Positions 12,263 to 32,602 of a stretch of DNA of 38,275 bases are shown piece after piece. Position numbers and translations under genes: made by a program. The first letter of the stretch is position 1. Each line of letters opens with the position of its first letter. The notes under the pieces were generated by a model. The model did no database searches and was not told the DNA's origin. It worked only from the letters and a program-made list of their open reading frames with translations. The stretch is taken from contig WJMD01000183.1 in NCBI GenBank assembly GCA_014728125.1, forward strand, positions 1 through 38,275. The letters run 5' to 3'. Origin of the DNA: Candidatus Effluviviaceae Genus V sp. (GTDB lineage: Bacteria; Joyebacterota; Joyebacteria; Joyebacterales; Joyebacteraceae).

Positions 12263-13420
12263 ATGCGCGTTCTCTACATCGCCGAGGTCCAGTGGCGCTC
12301 GCAGGTCTCGAGGAAGCATCATCTCATCCGCCGCTTCCCCGAAGCGTGGAGCGTCTTCTACACTTCGCCGGCGAACGCCGCACGCGGCGAGAACAGCTTC
12401 CGGGTGCGGACCGCGCGTCCCGGCCCGCTCGTCCGCTACGCGACGCTGCCTCTCCCGAAACCGAATGCCCGACTCATGCTGGTCCGGGCGGCCTCCCCGC
12501 TCCTGGCAAGGCTCGGCGAACGCCGGCTCCGGCGGATCGCCACCTCCTTCGAGCCCGACATCGTCATCTGCTCGTACATCTGGGCGCACGGGCCAGTCGC
12601 GCGTCTCGCGGCGGCAGGCACGCCGTGCATCTACGACCTCAACGATCTCCACTATGATTTCTATCCGCACTGCCGCGCGGAGGCCGTTGAGGCGTTCGAG
12701 GCCCTCGTCGACTCGGCCGATGAGGTGGTCTGCTCGTCGGAACGTCTCAGAGCGGTCGCCGGGCGCGGGGTCGTCATTGGAAACGGGGTCGATCTCACGA
12801 CGTTCCGGGGGCGCGAGATGGGCGAGGAGCCCGAGGAACTCGCGCGCTCCCCGCTCGGGGGCCGCGACGCTCTCGTGATCTACGTCGGGTCGATCGACGA
12901 TCGAATCGACTTCAGCGCGCTCGAGCGGACGATCGTCACGGCGGCCGAGGAGGGTTCGGGGCTCGTCTGCGTCGGGAGGATCTTCGATATGGCCCGTGCG
13001 GAGGTCAGGCGGCTCGAGAGAACGTACGGGGAGTCGGTGCTCTTCACCGGACGGATAGACTACGAACGGCTCCCGGACTTCATGTCGAGATGCTCGGTCG
13101 GCGTCGCGCCGTTCGTTCTGAACGAGAAGACGGCGGCGATCAACCCGAACAAGCTCTACACCTACGCCGCCATGGAGCTCAACATCGTGTCGACGCCCTT
13201 CTCCCGCGAGATCGAACGGTACGGCGACCTCGTCTTCATGGCCCGGGAGCCCGACGCGTTCGCCGCGGCCGTCAGAGACGCGCTCGGCGACGCTGAGCGC
13301 CGCCGAGCGGTTCGGCAGACCATCGCGCTGTCCAACAGTTGGGACGAGAAGGCGCGCGAGTACGTCGAGCTCATCGAGCGTCTTCGAGCTGCGCGGGCTC
13401 AGGGAGTCCCGTCCGACTGA
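12263..13420 (+). CDS. GT-B glycosyltransferase (GT4-like)
   Basis: The 385-residue protein has the two-domain GT-B layout. The N-terminal half (VLYIAEVQW, SFEPDIVICSYIW, CIYDLNDLHYDFY) binds acceptor; the C-terminal half starts after VIGNGVDLTTF and holds VIYVGSIDDRIDF and a donor-binding region (APFVLNEKTAAINPNKLYTYAAMELNIVS) with the E-x7-E-like signature weakly kept. Likely adds a sugar to a surface glycan. It stands alone, not in a polysaccharide cluster. GGGAGG lies 5 bases before the ATG. The last 22 bases overlap the convergent lipoprotein gene. Confidence 0.88.
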   Translation: MRVLYIAEVQWRSQVSRKHHLIRRFPEAWSVFYTSPANAARGENSFRVRTARPGPLVRYATLPLPKPNARLMLVRAASPLLARLGERRLRRIATSFEPDIVICSYIWAHGPVARLAAAGTPCIYDLNDLHYDFYPHCRAEAVEAFEALVDSADEVVCSSERLRAVAGRGVVIGNGVDLTTFRGREMGEEPEELARSPLGGRDALVIYVGSIDDRIDFSALERTIVTAAEEGSGLVCVGRIFDMARAEVRRLERTYGESVLFTGRIDYERLPDFMSRCSVGVAPFVLNEKTAAINPNKLYTYAAMELNIVSTPFSREIERYGDLVFMAREPDAFAAAVRDALGDAERRRAVRQTIALSNSWDEKAREYVELIERLRAARAQGVPSD

Positions 13421-13956
13421 ACCTCCCCGGACTCTCCGAGCTTCACTCTTCCGCGGCCGCCCTCGAACACCCCGTCACCCTCCTCGGGCCCGGGTGGCTC
13501 CGCGCCCGCGACCCCTGATGTGTCCCCGCGCGCGTACCACGGCGCGAGATAGAAGTAGATCGTCTCGTGCGTGTCGTAGTAGTCGACCTCGATGTCGACC
13601 CACTCAGCGTAGTAGCCCTCCGCGTAGGCCTCGATGCGGTAGTCGCGTTCCTCGTGTCCGCCGTGGCCGTCATAGTAGACGTACCCCAGGTCGATCGTGA
13701 CGTACCCGTACGGACCGACGCCCCACGAGCCGATGTAGTCCCACGACCACCAGTCCTCCTCGTAGACCTCGACGACCGCCCACGGGAGCGGCGCGCCCGA
13801 GTAGTAGTCGTAGACATAGGCGCGGAGGCTCGCCATACGGGGCGGGCGATGCGACGCATCGCACCACCAGCAGTCTCTCCAGACGATGCAGCCCGACAGC
13901 AGGAGCGGGACGATCACGATGAGAACCGCAACGCTCCATCTCTTCGCTTCTCGGAT
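13399..13956 (-). CDS. Tyr/Asp/Trp-rich small lipoprotein
   Basis: The minus-strand frame opens with the ATG at 13959-13957 (coordinates above allow 13959 as the first base) after GAGGAGG. It encodes about 186 residues: an uncleaved-type lipoprotein signal ending L-L-S-G-C (Cys23), a short Cys/Trp-rich stretch (residues 24-35), then a single beta-rich domain resembling carboxypeptidase-regulatory-like/transthyretin-like folds (SLRAYVYDYYSG, WAVVEVYEEDWW) that is very rich in Tyr and Asp. The tail of about 45 residues is Gly/Glu-rich and likely disordered. Function unknown. It follows the DUF4384 gene by 78 bases and should share its ECF-type promoter, which suggests an envelope-stress role. 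Confidence 0.75.
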   Translation of the reverse strand: MREAKRWSVAVLIVIVPLLLSGCIVWRDCWWCDASHRPPRMASLRAYVYDYYSGAPLPWAVVEVYEEDWWSWDYIGSWGVGPYGYVTIDLGYVYYDGHGGHEERDYRIEAYAEGYYAEWVDIEVDYYDTHETIYFYLAPWYARGDTSGVAGAEPPGPEEGDGVFEGGRGRVKLGESGEVQSDGTP

Positions 13957-14037
13957 CATCGTCAGCCCTCCTCTCGCTCATCTCGGTCCATCGACCGCGG
14001 CGCGTCTTCGTTCAGCGACGCGAACCGTCGTCGGCCG

Positions 14038-15258
14038 TCAGTCCTCTAAGACATCCACCTCGAAGCGGATCCAGCGGATCACCGGCGAATCCCAGCGTCC
14101 GGGCCTCTCCGTGGAGAAGTCGACCACCCGCATCTCGAGCCGTACGCCCTCGCGCTCGAGAAGCTCCTTGTAGACGCGGTCCGTGTCGGGGCGATGTCCT
14201 CTCCGACCCTCGACGTCGATCCGGAAGACCGACTCGATGCGGTCGCCGTCCTCGCGCTCAATGCGGCCCTCGATCTCGGTCGGTTCACCCTCTCTCCCCT
14301 CGACGCACTCGACCACCAGCACGACGTCCTCCACGATCTCCCGGAAGTAGGCATCCTCCTCGTCGTCGATCGTGAAGACGTCGCGGAGAAGCAGACGCCA
14401 CCCCTCGCCGTCGCCCCGCCGGCTTCCATCGGGGCGCGGTTCGTACGATCGGTCGTCGTGGTACCCGTACGGTCGGCCGCCGTACCATCCGTGGCCGTCC
14501 CACCCGTATCCGGCGACGCGGAAGCTGATCTCGTCGCAGGACCAGCGGCGGGGAGCATCGTACCAGGGATCCGGGACCGGCCAGTGACGCGGTGAGGGCG
14601 TCACGACGCGGCCGGGGCGGCCCGGCGAGTGCCGCGGACCGGACCGCCCTTCCACGATGACTCGACCCCGGCGTGAGCGGTGCGGGGGGACCCATGCGCC
14701 GCTCTGTCCGCTGGGCCAGGGAACCTCGTGGGCGCATGCCACGAGGGTCTCAATGCCCCCCGGCCCAGCGATGCGGAGTGAGTACCATCCGTCTCGAGGA
14801 ATCCGATACGTCCTCCCCGGATGAACGAAACTCGAGCCGGACCACCTGTTCGGAAAGAGCACGCGGACGCTTCCGTCCGTCGCATAGTCGATGATCGTGA
14901 CGTGACACGAGCGGTCCACGCGGAAGAAGACCCACAGAGGGTCGCCGGGCGCGTAGACCCCCCAGGGACCACGGTCGACCCAGAGCTGGACTCTCGGCGC
15001 GCCGTGATGGTGCCAGGGGCGCCCGTGTCCCCAGTCGTCCCAGCCGTCCCAGGACGGCTCAGGAACGACGACGACGCGCTCCCTCGCTTCACCGTCGTCA
15101 CGTGGAACGGCGGCGCCTCCGTCCCTCTCGGGGCGGGCCTCCTCGACCGCGATCTCTGCGGCCGGGGAGGCCACGCTCAACGAGAGGAGCACAAGGAGTG
15201 TGAGGAGCGTGGTCCAGAAGATGTGGCGCTCGCCTGCGTTCCGTAGCACGTCTGTCAT
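14038..15258 (-). CDS. DUF4384 domain exported protein
   Basis: The 406-residue protein has an N-terminal hydrophobic signal or anchor (residues about 14-34). The DUF4384 domain is near residues 85-175 (APGDPLWVFFRVDRSCHVTIIDYATDGSVRVLFPN), a fold found in secreted or surface proteins, often beside caspase-like or sigma/anti-sigma genes. The middle is rich in Arg, Trp, Gly, His and Tyr (residues about 190-290) and looks disordered. The C-terminal part (about 300-406) is charged and unassigned. GGAGG lies 7 bases before the ATG. The ECF-type promoter at 15337-15365 is upstream, and the Tyr-rich lipoprotein follows. A role in envelope stress is inferred from this. Confidence 0.82.
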   Translation of the reverse strand: MTDVLRNAGERHIFWTTLLTLLVLLSLSVASPAAEIAVEEARPERDGGAAVPRDDGEARERVVVVPEPSWDGWDDWGHGRPWHHHGAPRVQLWVDRGPWGVYAPGDPLWVFFRVDRSCHVTIIDYATDGSVRVLFPNRWSGSSFVHPGRTYRIPRDGWYSLRIAGPGGIETLVACAHEVPWPSGQSGAWVPPHRSRRGRVIVEGRSGPRHSPGRPGRVVTPSPRHWPVPDPWYDAPRRWSCDEISFRVAGYGWDGHGWYGGRPYGYHDDRSYEPRPDGSRRGDGEGWRLLLRDVFTIDDEEDAYFREIVEDVVLVVECVEGREGEPTEIEGRIEREDGDRIESVFRIDVEGRRGHRPDTDRVYKELLEREGVRLEMRVVDFSTERPGRWDSPVIRWIRFEVDVLED

Positions 15259-15336: not shown

Positions 15337-15365
15337 CTTAGACGCTGTACCCCCGGGCCTATTCA
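15337..15365 (-). promoter_or_regulatory. ECF-type promoter of the DUF4384-lipoprotein operon
   Basis: Minus strand TGAATAG (15365-15359), 14-bp spacer, CGTCTAAG (15344-15337). Both boxes are identical to those before the ECF sigma gene at 17197-17226. The -10 does not look like a sigma-70 box. The leader is about 70 bases. Confidence 0.7.
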
Positions 15366-15398
15366 CGCGACCGCGCGAGCCCCACCGAACGTGCGAAC

Positions 15399-15421
15399 GC
15401 CGGGCGCATCGAGCACCCGGC
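15399..15421 (-). terminator. Hairpin after the sigma/anti-sigma operon
   Basis: A 9-bp stem with one G-U pair (15399-15407 with 15413-15421) and a 5-nt loop lies 31 bases past the stop at 15453 and before the next ECF promoter. No U-run follows, so it may be a leaky or Rho-assisted terminator. Nothing else is seen between 15259 and 15452 apart from the promoter. Confidence 0.45.
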
Positions 15422-15452
15422 GGCCATGGATGGCGACACTGTCGTGAGAGGA

Positions 15453-15962
15453 TCAGCCCTTCGCGCTCAGAGCCAGAATCAGAACGCCGCTCTCGATCTC
15501 CGGACCGCCGAGCAGCACGGTCCCCCCGTTCTCCAGCCGGATCCTCGTCCGTAGAAGGACCTCGGGGTCCTTCGGCGGGCGCCCGTCGTCGGCCGGCTGC
15601 CTTGGAATGTCGCGCGTGAGCGTCACGAGCATCTCGATACGGTGGCGCTCGTCCCCCTCGAACCGCTGGGGCTCGACGACGAGCGTGAACCGCCCGGGTA
15701 TCGCGATGCGGGACGGCTCACCGAAGGTCGTCTGGCTCTGCATGCGGCCAAGAAAGGAATAGCGTGTGTAGGCGAAGAGGCTGGTCAGCTTATCGGCGAA
15801 GCCGGCGAGTCTCGCGTCGACCTTCGGCTCATCGCTCCCACGGCCGGCGGCCGGACTGGATGCGCCGATCGACGTAACCTCGATGCGAATCTCGTCGGAG
15901 CAGTATGCCGGAGCCGCAGAGACGAGAACGGCGATGGCGACCAACACGATAGCAGTTCTCAC
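15453..15962 (-). CDS. Small secreted protein in the ECF sigma operon
   Basis: I do not recognise a named family. With the GTG at 15962 (GGGGAGGAG about 9 bases upstream) the protein has 169 residues and starts directly with a signal peptide ending near APAYCS; a GTG at 15989 would add nine residues. The mature part has a helical stretch (DARLAGFADKLTSLFAYTRY), then a beta-rich region and a C-terminal NGGTVLLGGPEIESGVLILAL that recalls the end of secretin-type beta domains. It follows the anti-sigma gene after 37 bases. Small proteins of this kind occur downstream of sigma/anti-sigma pairs in several delta-proteobacterial-like lineages; a role in signal sensing is only a guess. Confidence 0.72.
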   Translation of the reverse strand: MRTAIVLVAIAVLVSAAPAYCSDEIRIEVTSIGASSPAAGRGSDEPKVDARLAGFADKLTSLFAYTRYSFLGRMQSQTTFGEPSRIAIPGRFTLVVEPQRFEGDERHRIEMLVTLTRDIPRQPADDGRPPKDPEVLLRTRIRLENGGTVLLGGPEIESGVLILALSAKG

Positions 15963-15999
15963 CTTGTTGCGCTCCTCCCCCGTTCCCACCTCGTCCGCG

Positions 16000-16548
16000 C
16001 TACCGGACTCCGATGCCGTCCGCTCCCGGAGCGGGACCGGTCTCCTCGGCGAACACCCAGATGACGGTCATCTCAGGGTCGTCCGAGGTGAAGAACATCG
16101 GCGTGTAACCGGATGTCACCGACTCGATGCTGTCGACGAAGCACTCGTTGCCGGCGGCCGCCGTCCCGACACCTCTGAAGCCGACGGGCCCGAGGACGAC
16201 GAGCAGAAGAAGACCCACGGCGATGGCCCCGGCCGCAGCGAAGGCCAGCCGGCGGTCGACGCGCTGCACCGGACGAGCCTCCGGGGCACGCGTGCGCCGC
16301 CTCGACTCGCGGTCGATGCGGTCGAGCTCCACGGAGAGCTCGCGATCGAACGCCCTCCAGCGCGCGTCTGAAACGCTCGGCGGAGTCGCCTTCTTCAGGA
16401 TTCTATCAAACGCCCGAATCGAGTCAAGTTCGGCCGCGCACGCGGGGCAGCGGTCAAGGTGTCGCTCGACCCTCGCCCTGCGCCGTTCCGAGAGCTCCCC
16501 GTCCACGTACGCTGTGAGGTAGCGCGAGATGCGGCACGTTCCGTTCAT
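16000..16548 (-). CDS. Membrane anti-sigma factor with zinc-finger (ZAS) domain
   Basis: The 182-residue protein holds the sigma factor at the membrane until a signal is sensed. The N-terminal zf-HC2/ZAS motif is complete: C5, H30-x3-C34-x2-C37. A transmembrane segment lies near residues 99-122 (LAFAAAGAIAVGLLLLVVLG), which puts about 60 C-terminal residues outside the membrane. That outer part carries VTSGYTPMFFTSDDPEMTVIWVFAE, typical of small anti-sigma C-termini. The ATG at 16548 is five bases from the sigma stop, so the two are likely translationally coupled. The target is surely the adjacent ECF sigma factor. Confidence 0.92.
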   Translation of the reverse strand: MNGTCRISRYLTAYVDGELSERRRARVERHLDRCPACAAELDSIRAFDRILKKATPPSVSDARWRAFDRELSVELDRIDRESRRRTRAPEARPVQRVDRRLAFAAAGAIAVGLLLLVVLGPVGFRGVGTAAAGNECFVDSIESVTSGYTPMFFTSDDPEMTVIWVFAEETGPAPGADGIGVR

Positions 16549-16553
16549 CGCAG

Positions 16554-17180
16554 TCAGTTCCCCGTTTCTTCCTCCGCCTGCACCGCGTCTCCGGAATCAA
16601 CGTACGGCGCGAGCATCTTCCTCAACTTCTTCCGAGCGTAGTGCAGCCGCGACATCACGGTACCGATGGAGCAGCCGACGACCTCCGCGATCTCCTTGTA
16701 GGACAGCCCCTCGATCTCATAGAGCACGAAAACCGACTTATGATACGGAGGCAGCGCCTCGATCGCCCGCTCGATCTGCTCGCCCAGCTCCCCCGCCAGC
16801 GCGTTCTCCGAGGGGTCGAGGAACGGACCCCGCTCGCCTGGGACCGCGTCGGCGAACTCGGCCACCTCCTCGGGGACCGAACGCGACGCGACCGATCGGG
16901 ACTGCTTCCGCGTGTAGTCGATACACGTGTTCATGGCGATCCGGTAGAGCCACGTTGAGAAGCTGGACCGCCCTCGGAAGCTACCGATGCCACGGTAGGC
17001 CCGGATGAAGACGTCCTGTGCAAGATCGAGTGCCAGGTCGGGGTCACGCGCGAACCGATACGCGACCGCGTAGACGACGTCTCTGTACCGTGTGATCAGC
17101 GCATCGAACGCGTCGCGGTCGCCCGCCTGAGCGGCCCGGACCTGTTCGAGGTCGAGCTCTCGCTTGTCCTGCTCAGGCAT
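16554..17180 (-). CDS. ECF RNA polymerase sigma factor (RpoE-like)
   Basis: A 208-residue group IV sigma factor. Region 2 spans about residues 18-90 (ITRYRDVVYAVAYRFARD, DLAQDVFIRAYRGI, FSTWLYRIAMNTCIDYTRK) and region 4 about 130-192 (LPPYHKSVFVLYEIEGLSYKEIA, then the helix-turn-helix VGCSIGTVMSRLHYARKKL). The linker is rich in Glu, Pro and Ser. It sits directly before its anti-sigma gene. Its own promoter carries two boxes found again before the DUF4384 operon, so it is probably autoregulated and drives that operon. The start at 17180 has a Gly-rich GGGGG ribosome site. Confidence 0.95.
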   Translation of the reverse strand: MPEQDKRELDLEQVRAAQAGDRDAFDALITRYRDVVYAVAYRFARDPDLALDLAQDVFIRAYRGIGSFRGRSSFSTWLYRIAMNTCIDYTRKQSRSVASRSVPEEVAEFADAVPGERGPFLDPSENALAGELGEQIERAIEALPPYHKSVFVLYEIEGLSYKEIAEVVGCSIGTVMSRLHYARKKLRKMLAPYVDSGDAVQAEEETGN

Positions 17181-17196
17181 GATCCCCCGCAGCGTT

Positions 17197-17226
17197 CTTA
17201 GACGGGCGCCCCGTCGGGGCTATTCA
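17197..17226 (-). promoter_or_regulatory. ECF-type promoter of the sigma/anti-sigma operon
   Basis: Minus strand TGAATAG (17226-17220), 15-bp spacer, CGTCTAAG (17204-17197). The -10 box ends 16 bases before the sigma start codon, so the leader is very short. Both boxes match the pair at 15337-15365 exactly. Confidence 0.72.
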
Positions 17227-17307: not shown

Positions 17308-18663
17308 CTAGTAGCGGATCTGACCAAACTCCTCGAGCTTGCCCGTGACGATCGATCGGAACTCGGCGAGACGCTCCTCCGTCTTCGCCTCGAACCGCAT
17401 CACGATCACCGGCTGTGTGTTGGAGGCCCGCACGAGGCCCCATCCGTCGCCGAAGAGGATACGGACCCCGTCGACATCGATGACATCGTAGTGCTCGGAG
17501 AAGTACTCGACGGCCTTCTCGACCATCTCGAACTTGACCTCGTCGTTCGTCGTCTCGCCGCGGATCTCCGGCGTCGAGACGTACGTCGGCACGGTGTCGA
17601 CCAGCTCCGAGAGCTTCCTGTCGGTGCGCGAGACCATCTGCAGAATGCGCGCCGCGGAGTATATGGCGTCGTCGAAGCCGAAGTAGTCGTCGGCGAAGAC
17701 CATGTGGCCGCTCATCTCTCCGCCCAGCGGCGCGTCGAGCTCCTTGATCTTCTGCTTGAGAAGCGAGTGCCCGGTCTTCCACATCACCGGCCTTCCGCCG
17801 TGCGCCTCGATGTCCTCGACGAGCGCCTGGGAGCACTTGACGTCGAAGACGATGTCGGCGGCGCCCTCCGCCAGAACCTCACGCGCAAGGAGCGCCAGCA
17901 TCGTGTCGGCGAAGACGACATCGCCGTTCTCATCGACGATGCCGACCCTGTCGGCGTCCCCGTCGAAGCCGATGCCGATGTCGGCGCCCTCCCGCCGGAC
18001 CGCTGAGATCAGGTCCTGGATGTACTCCATGACGGTCGGATCGGGATGGTGGTTCGGGAAATCGCCGTCCGGCTCGCAGAAGAGAGGCACGACGTCGCAC
18101 CCGAGGCTCTCGATGAGATCGGCCGCCAGCAGACTGGCGCAGCCGTTCCCGCAGTCGACGACGACCTTGAGTCTGCGGTCGAGCGAGATGCGTTCCCGTA
18201 CCGCTTCCGCGTAAGCCTCGAGCACGGTCGCCTCCTCGCGGCGGCCCGTGCCCTCCTCGAAGTCCCTCTTCTCGATGAGCTCACGGATGGCCTGGATCTC
18301 AGAGCCGAAGACCGACGCCTTTCCGAGGTTCATCTTGAACCCGTTCATGTCCGGCGGATTATGGCTGCCGGTGATCATGAGCGACGCGTCCACGGGGAGC
18401 TCGAACTCGCTGAAGTAGAGGACCGGCGTGGGAACGACGCCGACGTCCAGGACGTCGACCCCGGATGCTGTTATTCCCGCGGTGATCCTCTCCCTGAAGC
18501 GTCCCGTCGAGTGCCTGACGTCGCCGCCGAGGGCGACCGCTCGGGCGTCGCGCCGTCTGACGTACGTGCCGAAGCCGCGCCCGATGAGCTCCACGGTCTC
18601 GTCCGTGAGGTCCCGGTCGACGACACCCCTGATGTCGTACTCCCTGAAGATGTAGTCCTTCAT
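17308..18663 (-). CDS. manB: Phosphomannomutase/phosphoglucomutase
   Basis: Interconverts 6-phospho and 1-phospho hexoses for sugar-nucleotide synthesis. The 451-residue protein is full length for the alpha-D-phosphohexomutase family with all four domains. The phosphoserine loop is TGSHNPP (S100), the magnesium loop DGDADR (D234, D236, D238), the sugar-binding loop GEMSGH and the phosphate-binding loop RASNTQP near residue 418. GGGGAG precedes the ATG. It is the third gene after trpS and the membrane protein, with a 12-base gap. The bifunctional PMM/PGM type is favoured by EMSGH but is not proven. Confidence 0.94.
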   Translation of the reverse strand: MKDYIFREYDIRGVVDRDLTDETVELIGRGFGTYVRRRDARAVALGGDVRHSTGRFRERITAGITASGVDVLDVGVVPTPVLYFSEFELPVDASLMITGSHNPPDMNGFKMNLGKASVFGSEIQAIRELIEKRDFEEGTGRREEATVLEAYAEAVRERISLDRRLKVVVDCGNGCASLLAADLIESLGCDVVPLFCEPDGDFPNHHPDPTVMEYIQDLISAVRREGADIGIGFDGDADRVGIVDENGDVVFADTMLALLAREVLAEGAADIVFDVKCSQALVEDIEAHGGRPVMWKTGHSLLKQKIKELDAPLGGEMSGHMVFADDYFGFDDAIYSAARILQMVSRTDRKLSELVDTVPTYVSTPEIRGETTNDEVKFEMVEKAVEYFSEHYDVIDVDGVRILFGDGWGLVRASNTQPVIVMRFEAKTEERLAEFRSIVTGKLEEFGQIRY

Positions 18664-31981: not shown

Positions 31982-32602
31982 CTAGGTGACCCCCGCGGCG
32001 CTCGTCTGCGAGCCCGTGCCGCGCTGGTAGTAGTCGCTCAGCTTCTCTCTCAGGAACAGCCGCGCGCGGTGGAGCCGCGACTTCACCGCGGGAACCGACA
32101 ACCCGAGCACGTTCGCCGTGTCGTCGGTCGACAGACCGTGGATGTCGCGGAGCACGAAGACGATCCTGTTGTCGGGCGCGAGTTCGTTGATGTGTTTCGT
32201 GAGAACGGTCGAGAGCTCCTCGTTCATCACGTCGCTCGACGGATCCGTCGTCCAATCAGGTATCTGTCGCGGCACCGACTCGTGACCGATGGTGACCGGC
32301 TTGTCGATCGGGACCGTGTCGAGCTTCTTCTTCCGGATCCGCATGAGGCAGGCGTTCGTCGCGATCCTGTAGATCCACGTCGAGAACTTCGCGTCCTGAC
32401 GAAAGCCCGGCAACGCCTCGAACGCCTTGATGAAGACCTCCTGCAGACAGTCCTCGGCGTCCTCGGGATTGCCGAGCATCTTGAGACAGAGGCCGTAGAC
32501 CTTCGATTCGTGCCGCTCGACGAGCTCGCTGTACGCCTGGCTGTCGCCCTTCTGGGCTCTCGAGACGAGTTCTGAATCGGTGGGAACCGCTTTGTCGTCC
32601 AC
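31982..32602 (-). CDS. Second ECF RNA polymerase sigma factor
   Basis: A 206-residue group IV sigma factor. Region 2 is at about residues 12-85 (LVSRAQKGDSQAYSELVERHESKVYGL, EDAEDCLQEVFIKAFEALPGF, FSTWIYRIATNACLMRIRKKK) and region 4 at about 130-190 (LAPDNRIVFVLRDIHGLSTDDTANVLGLSVPAVKSRLHRAR). The linker is longer than in the sigma factor at 16554. The GTG at 32602 has GGAG 7 bases upstream; a TTG at 32653 would put a strong hairpin inside the gene and has no ribosome site. Next come the S9 peptidase and a zinc-finger protein. No copy of the other sigma factor's promoter boxes is seen here. Confidence 0.93.
   Translation of the reverse strand: MDDKAVPTDSELVSRAQKGDSQAYSELVERHESKVYGLCLKMLGNPEDAEDCLQEVFIKAFEALPGFRQDAKFSTWIYRIATNACLMRIRKKKLDTVPIDKPVTIGHESVPRQIPDWTTDPSSDVMNEELSTVLTKHINELAPDNRIVFVLRDIHGLSTDDTANVLGLSVPAVKSRLHRARLFLREKLSDYYQRGTGSQTSAAGVT

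Follow-up and report, generated by a model that had tools for sequence, protein, structure and literature searches.

The window, i.e., the whole stretch of 38,275 nucleotides that was analysed, carries on its minus strand a gene for an ECF sigma factor and a gene for an exported DUF4384 protein, each preceded by the same pair of short boxes, which are designated here as the putative promoters P1 and P2. The features are, in the order of the minus strand:

17308-18663, minus strand: gene 5' of P1, which we take to be phosphomannomutase-like
17197..17226, minus strand: P1, -35 box TGAATAG, spacer of 15, -10 box CGTCTAAG (exact match and family conservation)
16554..17180, minus strand: ECF sigma factor, 208 aa, regions 2 and 4 (Pfam Sigma70_r2, 4.8e-23; Sigma70_r4_2, 1.3e-18)
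16000..16548, minus strand: membrane anti-sigma factor, 182 aa (Pfam zf-HC2, 4.5e-12)
15453..15962, minus strand: exported 169-aa protein ("x178") from the third gene in the sigma operon, its predicted beta fold being secretin-like (AlphaFold2/Foldseek, conservation)
15337..15365, minus strand: P2, -35 box TGAATAG, spacer of 14, -10 box CGTCTAAG (exact match and family conservation)
14038..15258, minus strand: exported protein of 406 aa with a DUF4384 domain, its gene standing at the head of the second operon (Pfam DUF4384, 6.2e-18)
13399..13959, minus strand: lipoprotein of 186 aa with the lipobox LLSGC, its gene coming next in the second operon (SGCI invariant in an alignment of 13 relatives)

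The sigma protein consists of Sigma70 regions 2 and 4 without any other domain, and its score with the NCBIfam sigma70-ECF model exceeds the cut-off. The same window encodes another sigma factor of the ECF type, with 37% identity (32006-32581, minus strand). The anti-sigma gene is co-oriented and lies 5 bp 3' of the sigma gene, an arrangement which is conserved. Its product has an N-terminal zinc-binding domain, one hydrophobic segment, as read from the sequence, and an exported tail of about 50 aa; in the alignment H30, C34 and C37 were invariant and C5 nearly so. In the tail, C136 was nearly invariant, and the motif TVIWVF was found also in relatives from other phyla. A motif search with the tail failed even on members of the family, the pattern being too narrow.

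The third gene starts 37 bp past the anti-sigma gene and encodes a protein with a signal-peptide-like N-terminus; it is present in single copy, and its third place in the sigma operon is conserved. No confident Pfam family was found for the 169-aa protein. An AlphaFold2 model (pLDDT 85.8) gave secretins of type II secretion systems as top Foldseek matches, with an E-value of 1.1e-4 for XcpQ at a TM-score of only about 0.3. The Pfam profile Secretin (PF00263) scored 12.5 bits, which is under the curated cut-off of 27.5, and sub-threshold matches of this kind were obtained for 7 of 16 third-gene members. The protein thus resembles the core of the secretins GspD, XcpQ and ExeD by the weak profile and the best fold matches, including the segment GGTVLLGGP, but it is short and lacks the N domains, and the TM-scores were low; by these tests it would not be classed as a secretin.

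The DUF4384 protein scored 65.1 bits against a curated cut-off of 27, and its gene was the sole one of this kind per family genome, among the searched genomes possessing any. Its structural model was poor (pLDDT 59.9), and the fold search was unspecific, with mostly Ig-like matches. For the lipoprotein there was no confident or usable Pfam match; its gene followed that for the DUF4384 protein in all relatives where the region was assembled. The earlier note had placed a sigma/anti-sigma operon and a DUF4384-lipoprotein operon behind the boxes, with two exported proteins of the latter under control. Both operons are indeed situated there and both proteins are exported, but the third gene of the sigma operon (15453-15962) had been missed, and with its product the count of exported proteins becomes three.

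P1 (TGAATAGCCCCGACGGGGCGCCCGTCTAAG, 17226-17197, minus strand) lies 16 nt before the ATG of the sigma gene, and P2 (TGAATAGGCCCGGGGGTACAGCGTCTAAG, 15365-15337, minus strand) lies about 79 bp before the ATG of the DUF4384 gene (15258). Since P1 is so close, a leader of about 10 nt would be expected for the sigma transcript if the presumed start positions are correct; a purine-rich ribosome-binding stretch is contained within it. The interval from the third gene to P2 contained no terminator-like site; transcription from P1 may therefore continue into the second operon. The interval 15337-17226, in which the paired boxes had been reported in the same orientation with spacers of 15 and 14, proved to be the exact span of both, and the boxes were exact at both minus-strand sites. 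As had also been claimed, the pair was absent elsewhere in the window: no further match to TGAATAG-N14/15-CGTCTAAG was present, and none occurred in 100 dinucleotide shuffles.

The search was extended to the whole genome (2,519,156 bases, 190 contigs, 97.6% complete). TGAATA-N13..18-GTCTAAG yielded two matches, which were P1 and P2, while the reversed-pattern control yielded none; random occurrence in the genome, named in the earlier note as evidence against a regulon, was thus not observed. With GAAT-N15..20-CGTCTA five matches including P1 and P2 were obtained (control, 3).

Conservation was assessed in a family set of 19 other genomes of Candidatus Effluviviaceae, representing eight genera (taxonomically of the phylum Candidatus Effluviviacota). 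Sigma orthologues with 70-77% identity were present in 17 of the 19. P1 preceded the sigma gene in all 16 genomes with this region assembled, and P2 preceded the DUF4384 operon in all 18 with that region assembled. A P1-like site on another contig was noted in the seventeenth genome, G018. GAAT and CGTC were invariant at P1 and P2 throughout, the spacer columns were on average 51-58% conserved, and the spacing from TGAATA to CGTC was 15 or 16. The pattern TGAATA-N13..18-GTCTA gave 29 matches in the 19 genomes, 24 of them at the two orthologous positions (reversed control, 7); the remaining five had another spacing or lacked the C of CGTC. Where the strict pattern failed, sites were recovered by reading the upstream regions directly. 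Such variants were CGTCAGA at P1 of genus g5, CGTCGAAA at P2 of genus g4, and, in genome G001, CGAATA...CGTCCAAG at P1 and TGAATG...CGTCTAAC at P2. By shuffling, the chance of the relaxed motif was 6e-4 per P2 region. Sigma, DUF4384 and third genes were jointly absent in G004 (96% complete) and G011 (57% complete), as would be expected if the entire locus had been lost or had escaped assembly.

The third gene was also encountered outside the family. A profile of it matched 30 of 290 genomes, and in each of the 12 cases outside the family the gene was located 3' of a gene for an ECF sigma factor and co-oriented with it; in eight of them an anti-sigma motif HxxxCxxC could be recognised between the two genes. 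In G109 (L272), unlike other members, less than 30 bp separate the sigma gene from the third gene behind it, which leaves no room for an anti-sigma gene between them. Two extra cases, found in named records of one Verrucomicrobiales and one Hydrogenedentota genome, brought the number to 14. Nine of these 14 showed xGAATx-N15/16-CGTC before the sigma gene, compared to none of 67 ECF homologues that lacked the third gene, most of which had no recognisable ECF promoter of either kind; the Fisher p value of 8e-9 refers to related genomes, i.e., to non-independent samples. In six of six genomes examined afterwards GAAT[A/T]-N15-CGTCTAA stood directly before the sigma gene, which gave totals of 15 of 20 third-gene operons outside the family and 0 of 67 homologues lacking this gene. 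Across phyla, the presence of the third gene would thus appear to go along with that of the autoregulatory promoter. Among the genomes examined, only those of the family had the DUF4384-lipoprotein operon. In L286-L290, which belong to one phylum, the -10 box 5' of the sigma gene runs into the ATG (CGTCTAATG); the true start codon is therefore probably further downstream.

ECF sigma factors are commonly autoregulated and co-transcribed with their anti-sigma factors, and their -10 boxes are of the CGT type (PMC8103513). When the sites were judged as the sigma factor's own promoters, the -10 core CGTC was invariant, as expected for the ECF type, and the -35 element was GAAT, where GAAC or AAC would be more usual. 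The recognition helix GTVMSRL was considered as an explanation for the GAAT specificity, but it was present also in 17 of the 67 homologues without such a promoter; the helix alone thus fails to explain it.

That each genome contains just two copies might suggest coincidence, or a site at which an unrelated regulator, either repressor or activator, binds. The conserved positions in eight genera and the recurrence before sigma genes of other phyla fit better with a promoter for this sigma factor: both sites were kept in all relatives with variable spacers, and the -35/-10 spacing and the CGTC core are ECF-like. We regard coincidence or an unrelated regulator as very improbable. Somewhat less remote, but still improbable, is the possibility that P1 and P2 are read chiefly by a different ECF sigma factor encoded in the genome, or are shared by several. 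Cross-talk among ECF sigma factors is known, and the genome contains at least three further ECF-type genes, including the one at 32006-32581. However, the site stands before this sigma lineage in several phyla, and its uniqueness in the genome would leave another sigma factor without any further site of this type, even one before its own gene.

A larger regulon, in which weaker sites (variants of GAAT, or CGTC not followed by TAAG) would drive further genes, was likewise considered. The relaxed pattern TGAATA-N15..16-CGTC raised the number of sites by four in this genome and by a few per relative, and in genus g3 a site (TGAATAGGGGCAGA..TCCCCGTCCCAG) was located 135-150 bp before a gene for a PorV-like outer-membrane protein in five of five genomes (L291, L292, L293, L294, L295). 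The bases flanking the latter were as conserved as the site itself, and for this reason it was not accepted as a third promoter; it was confined to g3, where it may mark a further target, and no third target common to several genera was found. Since, moreover, most of 20 other relaxed sites examined in family genomes fell in coding sequence, two promoters are the supported count, and additional ones seem rather unlikely.

The best explanation would accordingly be a compact, positively autoregulated ECF regulon with two promoters, serving exported proteins, which we hold to be very probable on the basis of sequence comparisons. Autoregulation of the sigma factor and control of an exported-protein operon had been proposed in the earlier note; the genome-wide uniqueness, the conservation in eight genera and the recurrence in other phyla support this proposal, with autoregulation itself being inferred. 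The data argue strongly for this sigma factor as the reader of both sites, and the anti-sigma factor is presumably cognate to it. The membrane-bound zf-HC2-type anti-sigma factor would hold the sigma factor until an extracytoplasmic signal sets it free; RNA polymerase with the freed sigma factor would then read TGAATA-N15/16-CGTCTAA at P1, yielding sigma factor, anti-sigma factor and the secretin-like exported protein, and at P2, yielding the DUF4384 protein and the lipoprotein. Feedback would be positive via the sigma factor and negative via the anti-sigma factor. The secretin-like protein could be, at a guess, a periplasmic sensor partner or an effector. The response might protect or remodel the cell envelope, a guess drawn solely from the exported nature of the products. 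More tentatively, the sigma factor, the zf-HC2 anti-sigma factor and the secretin-like protein could form one undescribed module of several phyla, tied to GAAT[A/T]-N15-CGTCTAA, with the secretin-like protein sensing an outer-membrane signal or relaying it to the tail of the anti-sigma factor; this is possible, though we would not favor it.

The phylum, known to date through metagenome assemblies, thereby gains a regulon and a promoter that can be tested. The example shows that a circuit conserved in eight genera can be predicted from two short boxes in a single raw window, and it links a conserved exported protein without a confident Pfam family to a defined regulatory module that occurs in several phyla. 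The rarity of the pattern in these genomes also makes the sigma/promoter pair a candidate part for orthogonal expression. Literature on a GAATA/CGTC ECF group or on DUF4384 regulation provided nothing usable, the search not covering the group motifs of the large ECF reclassification.

Among known systems, sigma-E/RseA of E. coli and SigW/RsiW of Bacillus likewise have sigma factors of regions 2 and 4 only, a neighbouring anti-sigma gene, a promoter of their own operon with a CGT-type -10 box, and exported target products. In contrast, two promoters were found here, the -35 element is TGAATA, the third gene is secretin-like, the exported tail of the anti-sigma factor is short, and no RseB-like gene was seen. 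With zf-HC2 (ZAS-type) anti-sigma factors, C5, the H30-C34-C37 motif and the hydrophobic segment are shared; the conserved short exported tail CIVDSIE...TPMFF...DPEMTVIWVF is different, and scores were under the cut-offs of named NCBIfam equivalogs. Other DUF4384 proteins have the domain match beyond the Pfam cut-off in common, but the protein described here has a further beta-rich domain and is paired with a lipoprotein. The kind of system is already known; the less expected part is the cross-phylum module of sigma factor, anti-sigma factor and secretin-like protein with a GAATA-type -35 element.
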